Below, piece by piece: positions 11,240-11,597 of a stretch of DNA of 11,597 nt; position 1 is the first letter of the stretch; each line of letters opens with the position of its first letter. The stretch spans positions 1-11,597 of the forward strand of contig SHMQ01000049.1 of assembly GCA_008534395.1 (NCBI GenBank), read 5' to 3'. Source of the DNA: Candidatus Acidulodesulfobacterium acidiphilum. Lineage in GTDB: Bacteria; SZUA-79; Acidulodesulfobacterales; Acidulodesulfobacteraceae. Position numbers and translations under genes: made by a program. Under the pieces are notes generated by a model, which searched no databases, was not told the origin of the DNA, and was given only the letters and a program-made list of their open reading frames with translations.

Positions 11240-11328
11240 GGAGAGATGGCCGAGCGGTTTAAGGCGGCGGTCTTGAAAACCGTTGATGCTTAAAACATCC
11301 GGGGGTTCGAATCCCTCTCTCTCCGCCA
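11240..11328 (+). tRNA. tRNA-Ser (anticodon UGA), CCA encoded
   Basis: The acceptor stem GGAGAGA (11240-11246) pairs with TCTCTCC (11318-11324), followed by discriminator G and encoded CCA (11326-11328). The anticodon stem GCGGT/ACCGT encloses loop CTTGAAA, with TGA at 11274-11276. A long variable arm follows, as expected for serine tRNA. The T-arm is GGGGG-TTCGAAT-CCCTC with one G-U pair. It reads UCA and, by wobble, other UCN codons. Its last 18 bases plus the next T recur twice downstream in the tandem repeats. Confidence 0.97.
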
Positions 11329-11409
11329 TAAATAAACGCTATTTCTTATACAGTCATTTAATTCAATACAGGCCATAGGATTCGAACACCCGGAGCGCGT
11401 AGCGCATTA

Positions 11410-11462
11410 GGGGGTTCGTCGCTTTTAGCGTCCGAAGGACGCTCATCCCTCTCTCTCCGCCA
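11410..11462 (+). pseudogene. tRNA-Ser 3' fragment interrupted in the T-loop (copy 1; copy 2 at 11544-11596)
   Basis: GGGGGTTCG (11410-11418) equals the 5' half of the tRNA-Ser T-arm (11301-11309). ATCCCTCTCTCTCCGCCA (11445-11462) equals the rest of the T-arm and the acceptor 3' strand. Between them lie 26 bases (11419-11444) in place of the single A of the intact gene; these contain the hairpin AGCGTCC-GAA-GGACGCT. The D-arm and anticodon arm are absent, so it cannot make a tRNA. The second repeat has an identical fragment. It looks like a duplicated tRNA end invaded by, or fused to, a small palindromic element. Confidence 0.75.
11427..11443 (+). other. Strong 7-bp hairpin in each repeat (copy 2 at 11561-11577)
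   Basis: AGCGTCC and GGACGCT pair perfectly around a GAA triloop. An overlapping alternative, CGCT-TTT-AGCG (11420-11430), shares AGCG, so the two are mutually exclusive. No T-run follows, so it is not a classical intrinsic terminator; it could be an RNA processing or end-protection structure, or a REP-like palindrome. Confidence 0.6.
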
Positions 11463-11597
11463 TAAATAAACGCTATTTCTTATACAGTCATTTAATTCAA
11501 TACAGGCCATAGGATTCGAACACCCGGAGCGCGTAGCGCATTAGGGGGTTCGTCGCTTTTAGCGTCCGAAGGACGCTCATCCCTCTCTCTCCGCCAT

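Follow-up and report, generated by a model that had tools for sequence, protein, structure and literature searches.

Regarding repeats that carry the end of a tRNA gene, the closest described system is rtT of Escherichia coli, which has been known since the late 1970s and has been treated as a peculiarity of tyrT. An acting stable RNA was proposed for it, and the function of the rtT RNA is unsettled. Besides rtT, an element that integrates at a tRNA 3' end leaves this end behind in the form of direct repeats. Our literature searches found no paper describing a class of tRNA-end repeats.

Anatomy of the array and its relation to described systems

The window, by which we mean the whole stretch of DNA analysed (11,597 nt), is contig C49 of a MAG assembly (G000; 2.09 Mb in 70 contigs). 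It ends in a serine tRNA gene followed by a tandem array, with the features below.

11192..11220, plus strand: promoter-like site TTGCAA-17-TATAAT, 20 nt 5' of the tRNA (10 of 12 positions match; a consensus match only)
11240..11328, plus strand: tRNA-Ser(UGA) with CCA encoded (ARAGORN, Rfam)
11311..11328, plus strand: tRNA positions 59-76, the 18 nt that recur in every unit (sequence, repeat finder)
11329..11377, plus strand: unit 1 spacer, 49 nt, AT-rich; the family keeps its length, not its sequence
11378..11462, plus strand: unit 1 structured core plus tRNA end (R1 covariance model match; covariation)
11378..11394, plus strand: antisense T-arm copy GGATTCGAACACCCGGA (inverted repeat I1, 94% complementary to 11298-11314)
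11395..11405, plus strand: hairpin C, GCGC-GTA-GCGC; relatives swap the entire stem (GGGC/GCCC, GCCC/GGGC)
11410..11418, plus strand: sense T-stem and start of the T-loop, GGGGGTTCG (sequence, repeat finder)
11427..11443, plus strand: hairpin D, AGCGTCC-GAA-GGACGCT, inserted at the T-loop closing point
11445..11462, plus strand: unit 1 copy of tRNA positions 59-76 (repeat finder)
11463..11596, plus strand: unit 2, identical to unit 1 (repeat finder, covariance model)
11597..11597, plus strand: first base only of a third unit; contig end (sequence)

A sequence-only reading of this DNA had described tRNA-Ser(UGA) followed by two identical 134-bp units, each repeating the last 18 bases of the tRNA and the next T, and both statements were borne out by the sequence, ARAGORN and the repeat finder. 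The 134-nt copies at 11311-11444 and 11445-11578 agree at every position (100%). The 19-mer ATCCCTCTCTCTCCGCCAT is found at 11311, 11445 and 11579; in it, 18 nt from the tRNA (positions 59-76) are joined to a T, with which the repeat spacer opens. By chance, about 5e-4 exact 19-mer pairs would be expected in the window. Of the partial third unit in that reading, the 19 nt at 11579 stand, but nothing lies beyond these shared 19 nt because the contig stops at 11597. From 5' to 3', a unit comprises the 49-nt spacer, GGATTCGAACACCCGGA, hairpin C, GGGGGTTCG, hairpin D, one C, and ATCCCTCTCTCTCCGCCA, which equals tRNA positions 59-76 and closes each unit of the window. A spacer of ~50 nt, an imperfect hairpin domain and positions 59-76 are arranged in tandem between the tRNA CCA and the flank. 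The other end of the contig also lies at a tRNA gene (tRNA-Lys, window 4-79), a second assembly break at a tRNA.

The analogy with rtT was correctly drawn and proved closer than the window by itself could reveal. In E. coli K-12, tRNA-Tyr reads ..TTCGA|ATCCTTCCCCCACCACCA on direct reading, and the tyrT/tyrV units, which are 178 nt long (175 for one between tyrT and tyrV), comprise a spacer of ~58 nt, GGGGAAGGATGAGAAGCTTCGACCAAGGTTCG (antisense tRNA end and sense T-stem), hairpins, and ..GAGTA|ATCCTTCCCCCACCACCA, with the order of parts and the 58/59 junction found in the window units. The likeness to RtT (RF00391) thus covers tandem units behind a tRNA, each ending in its last 18-19 nt (positions 59-76), a spacer of about 50-58 nt, an antisense tRNA 3' segment, a sense GGTTCG T-stem, hairpins inserted before position 59, and a copy number that varies between strains. 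The differences are the tRNAs concerned (Ser, and Gln, Asn and Tyr, here; Tyr, and Pro, Lys, Arg and Ser, in enterics), the hairpin sequences, which are unlike, and the length (134 bp here versus 178 bp in E. coli). Since the RF00391 covariance model had no match in the window at E<=10 (nor in the family genomes at E<=1), the array is an RtT-like variant and not a scored member of RtT; at the gathering threshold, Rfam returned only tRNAs from the window. The unit had been called unrelated to that of E. coli, which holds insofar as sequence models link neither to the other, but not for the anatomy, which is identical.

Other described systems resemble the array less closely. The model consensus of sX4 (RF02223, Proteobacterial sRNA) contains a tRNA-Ser and, ~50 nt on, GGGGGGUGAGA pairing back to the T-arm side; however, it has no tandem repeat or second tRNA end, and its weak match to the window tRNA plus spacer (27.9 bits) does not reach the Rfam cut-off of 70, so membership was rejected. 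REP/BIME elements are likewise short non-coding hairpin repeats with GNA-type loops and nested palindromic insertions, but are dispersed, whereas strong unit matches lie either at a tRNA gene or where a contig ends in one of these loci. A genome-wide repeat indifferent to tRNA ends, which the sequence-only reading had named as a case that would overturn it, is accordingly not supported, as no genome-wide copies free of tRNA preference were found. Nor is a CRISPR array supported, because whole units, spacers included, are identical. As a separate observation, REP-like palindromes of the CATTGCGAGCGCAGCGAAGCAATCC type adjoin arrays in the downstream flanks of L088 and L092.

The same reading had offered scars of an integrating element as one explanation. 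If integrative elements had entered at the tRNA 3' end by means of a tyrosine integrase, the attachment sites left over would be expected to show direct repeats of that end beside an intact tRNA, as is the case here. The present array differs in having no integrase nearby, no cargo, and homogeneous short tandem units, which are 90-180 bp in length and gene-free throughout. In six family genomes, integrase genes occur beside other tRNAs rather than beside those with units; the closest one seen is about 4 kb off and next to another tRNA. Moreover, identity begins at position 59 whichever tRNA is concerned (Ser, Gln, Asn, Tyr, Pro, Lys or Arg). The window unit had no match in phage and plasmid records, and phage records held no unit match except for a misfiled Salmonella chromosomal contig. 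Considering these points, we regard attachment-site remnants as very improbable. Integrase genes were seen within ~1 kb of tRNA-His, -Val, -Met and -Lys, all of which are unit-free, in contigs C38, C12 and C20 of G000 and C3 and C4 of G019.

Distribution, exchange and copy number within the family

A covariance model of the serine unit matched 16 of 16 genomes of the genus and, in the family, the genera g4, g5 (3 of 4 genomes) and g6; g3 gave no match and g2 one weak match in 8 genomes. Arrays follow all four serine tRNAs (UGA, GCU, CGA and GGA), and in many species almost every assembled serine locus has kept them. The genes downstream are constant for each serine isoacceptor where seen, and presumably, as read from their open reading frames, comprise tatA, a recD-like helicase, a cobyrinate-synthase operon and an ABC permease. 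Units are near-identical inside an array, and spacer sequences differ between species, with a length of 47-56 nt in nearly all serine units and of 52-55 nt in the short units described below. The T-stem letters track the local tRNA, being GAGGG for GCU and GGA and GGGGG for UGA and CGA. Comparison of spacers between serine loci gave some identities of 75-83%, whereas shuffled sequences did not exceed 72%, and arrays at two serine tRNAs of G006 have a common deviant end, TTAAGCC, in which CCGCCA is lost; these two findings show that loci exchange units. Tandem pseudo-tRNA-Ser(CGA) genes were also observed 5' of the true gene in L071 (~1607-1720), L080 (~1532-1840, reverse) and L083 (~1500-2060, reverse), with small hairpins after the anticodon stem and in the T-loop, such as CGGAGTTCAGCGAAGCTC; they end in the same GCTC|ATCC junction.

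The sequence-only reading had proposed searching related genomes for the unit at other tRNA genes, and besides the four serine loci, this search yielded shorter units at Gln, Asn and Tyr tRNAs. Among the tRNAs surveyed in G000 and G019, repeated ends beyond serine were found at tRNA-Gln(UUG) in both genomes and at tRNA-Asn in G019; the tRNA-Asn site of G000 carries no unit, and what follows it resembles the flank seen elsewhere behind the final unit of an array. The short units are 90-93 nt long and contain an almost invariant 23-mer, GATCACGACCGAAGGGAGTCATC, which lies 52-55 nt 3' of the CCA of tRNA-Gln, -Asn or -Tyr; after it comes the end of whichever tRNA stands at the locus. When about 85,000 species genomes were scanned for the exact pattern, 15 stretches with this 23-mer were returned, which lie behind tRNA-Gln, -Asn or -Tyr wherever the contig extends far enough upstream; viral contigs contained none. 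All of the carriers are environmental MAGs that appear to belong to the family of the window and, to judge by sample type, may be Acidulodesulfobacterales. The short units contain a tandem GA hairpin, C-GA-CC-GAA-GG-GA-G, and a tandem GA motif has been described in a hairpin of an RtT RNA (PMC7657543); this motif is absent from the serine units of the window and present in the Gln, Asn and Tyr units of the family.

Copy number at the locus was assessed across assembly breaks. Contig C41 of G000 ends in two further units with 2-3 substitutions relative to those of the window, and its sequence past these units is 98% identical to the flank 3' of the orthologous array in the sister genome G002, while the window 5' of the tRNA is 90% identical to the opposite side of that array. 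Since the two contigs match opposite flanks, the assembly broke this tRNA-Ser(UGA) locus at its array, which holds about four or more units. The concern that a single copy had been multiplied by the assembly is not supported, as the array is not confined to one contig. At the orthologous locus, G002 carries a single unit (133/134 identical) and part of a spacer, and one unit against about four or more in G000 points to recent amplification, as had been proposed from the window. Contigs C16 and C64 of G000 open with arrays whose orthologues follow tRNA-Ser(CGA) and tRNA-Ser(GGA). Both of these tRNAs were absent from the tRNA search of this genome, their genes apparently lost at assembly breaks. 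Arrays of this type break assemblies, and tRNA genes thereby vanish from MAGs.

Units in other bacteria and their descent

Using the E. coli unit as a query, a match was obtained in 4,692 of 5,426 genomes. E. coli strains carry 0, 1 or 2 units at tyrT and 0, 1 or 3 at tyrV, with exact junctions at the 18-nt copies; several strains have none at tyrT, and at least one of these also has none at tyrV. A 175-bp change in copy number has been reported at Salmonella rtT (PMC2658671). Klebsiella has units at Tyr, Pro, Lys, Ser and Arg tRNAs and Salmonella Infantis at tRNA-Pro, in which the hairpin is conserved and the spacer and tRNA-matching segments vary with the tRNA; the short Klebsiella Lys units end in GAGTC|ATCC, similar to the short units of the family of the window.

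The tandem tRNA-Ser-end pattern was also searched in 386 genomes and, outside the family, mostly represented ordinary tRNA-Ser gene pairs; two unrelated genomes, G120 and G160, are clearly RtT-like, with the same anatomy at tRNA-Ser, and G162 has a truncated version at tRNA-Met. In viral contigs, the pattern was mostly due to CRISPR arrays and coding repeats and was set aside. Two viral-labelled contigs (L246, 801-975; L245, 54-186, with the full T-arm) show a repeat of a tRNA-Ser 3' end accompanied by a unit-like segment, and two others (L241 and L254) contain CRISPR-like arrays, the repeat of which, GTTTCAATCCACTCTCCGCCACGCGGGCGGAGAGAAT, includes CTCTCCGCCA, a sequence identical to a tRNA-Ser 3' end.

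None of the E. coli, Klebsiella or Salmonella units was matched by the serine-unit model, whose matches in G120, G160 and L246 cover the tRNA end alone. Since the Rfam RtT model misses the window and the family model misses the enteric units, common descent of the units across phyla is unproven. These failures of the models, together with the weakness of matches elsewhere, would fit independent births, in which slippage or template switching at the quasi-palindromic T-arm created each array anew, with no cross-phylum descent; the unit, which runs through sense, antisense and again sense copies of the tRNA 3' end and has microhomology (ATCC) at its junction, also agrees with such births. However, the spacer length, the GATGAGAA motif and the GAGT(C/A)|ATCC junction are common to distant taxa, as is the tandem GA hairpin (PMC7657543), and the 23-mer is near-invariant over genera and three tRNA families, such that we consider independent births to be unlikely. 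As the copied piece is always 18 nt, a casposase-like target duplication, or reverse transcription halting at position 58, was also considered. More tentatively, the RtT-like units of distant bacteria may represent one old class of mobile hairpin at tRNA 3' ends, which would move between tRNA genes, rewrite its arms to match, and be kept since each gain or loss restores an intact tRNA; we hold this to be possible and no firmer than that.

Structure, transcription and persistence of the repeat

Single-sequence folding of the unit was uninformative (z -0.03), and comparative evidence was used instead. In 24 distinct cores, 97.3% of the cells of stems A-C are paired versus 92.0% in shuffles, changes on both sides occur in 22 stem cells versus 9.0, and the covariation score is 0.199 versus 0.111; because the sequences are related to one another and the structure was derived from them, this test shows that pairing is kept, which is compatible with either molecule, RNA or DNA. 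Hairpin C shows whole-stem replacement (GCGC/GCGC, GGGC/GCCC and GCCC/GGGC), and hairpin D has stems of the AGCGTCC- and AACTTTTC-types. On the tRNA-sense strand, 19 G.T pairs were counted versus 3 A.C pairs, an excess that favours a sense-strand structure, namely, a sense RNA or sense single-stranded DNA. The loops of hairpin C are C(GNA)G triloops in 23 of 35 cases, with GNRA in 1 of 9 tetraloops, and C(GNA)G-type triloops suit DNA minihairpins better than RNA; therefore, the two hints conflict on the molecule. A nested palindromic insert (GATACGTAAGCAGGCGTTTACAAAAGC..GCTTTTGTGCCTGCTGAAGTG) was seen within hairpin D in several species (L037, L040, L074 and L080).

This compensatory change, the swaps of entire stems in hairpins C and D, and the G.T excess may each be taken to indicate a functional RNA, in which one transcript would cover tRNA and array, and cleavage at every CCA would yield stable, acting hairpin RNAs. 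No intrinsic terminator was found from the promoter-like site to the contig end, and hence transcription of the array from the tRNA promoter, as envisaged in the sequence-only reading, is plausible here. In Thioalkalivibrio, RtT-annotated sRNA transcripts are induced in the cold (PMC8092127), and arrays are kept at serine tRNAs throughout the genus. On the other hand, an intrinsic terminator lies inside the spacer, ahead of the units, at Klebsiella tRNA-Pro and tRNA-Ser(GGA) and Salmonella tRNA-Pro, and processing of the tRNA transcript therefore fails as a general rationale. Nor do the units depend on CCA processing, given that their ends in G006 have lost CCGCCA. The E. coli strains without units at tyrT, at least one of which also lacks those at tyrV, and the loop types of hairpin C also argue against a functional RNA, which we consider possible, albeit doubtful.

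The reading to which we incline, with some reserve, is that of an RtT-like tRNA-end array that is mainly a self-perpetuating, harmless DNA passenger restoring the tRNA end; its main rival is a regulatory role of the repeat RNA. Sister species, like strains of E. coli, differ in how many units they carry, and the junctions fall exactly at the 18-nt copies. Copies may be gained and lost by recombination or slippage between these 18-nt direct repeats, with the tRNA always left intact, and this turnover would keep the units of one array identical. In the longer term, the hairpin domain may have spread between tRNA genes, with its tRNA-matching segments adapting to the new tRNA. At the present locus, the array would be co-transcribed as a long 3' trailer, and cutting at each CCA could free hairpin RNAs of ~134 nt. 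Such a passenger could persist because, with the tRNA end restored, it would be harmless.

Judged from sequence comparisons, the anatomy of the window, the family-wide arrays, the enteric parallels, the differences in copy number and the exchange between loci appear to support the passenger explanation. Against it, no insertion event was caught, and the empty E. coli tyrT sites may have lost their units precisely, given that these sites are occupied in related genera. Near-universal retention at serine loci exceeds that of a neutral, deletable repeat and favours a function. No mobilising enzyme was identified, and the presence of Y1 transposases does not track with the arrays.

Taken together, rtT appears to be a single instance of a broader group of repeats that carry tRNA ends. 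Its architecture recurs in several bacterial lineages, behind Ser, Gln, Asn, Tyr, Pro, Lys and Arg tRNAs, and so provides a class open to comparison: tRNAs that carry units or lack them, tRNAs that have a terminator or none, and strains with 0 to 3 copies may be set side by side. This variation makes the old question of whether these repeats encode a functional RNA or are selfish directly testable.
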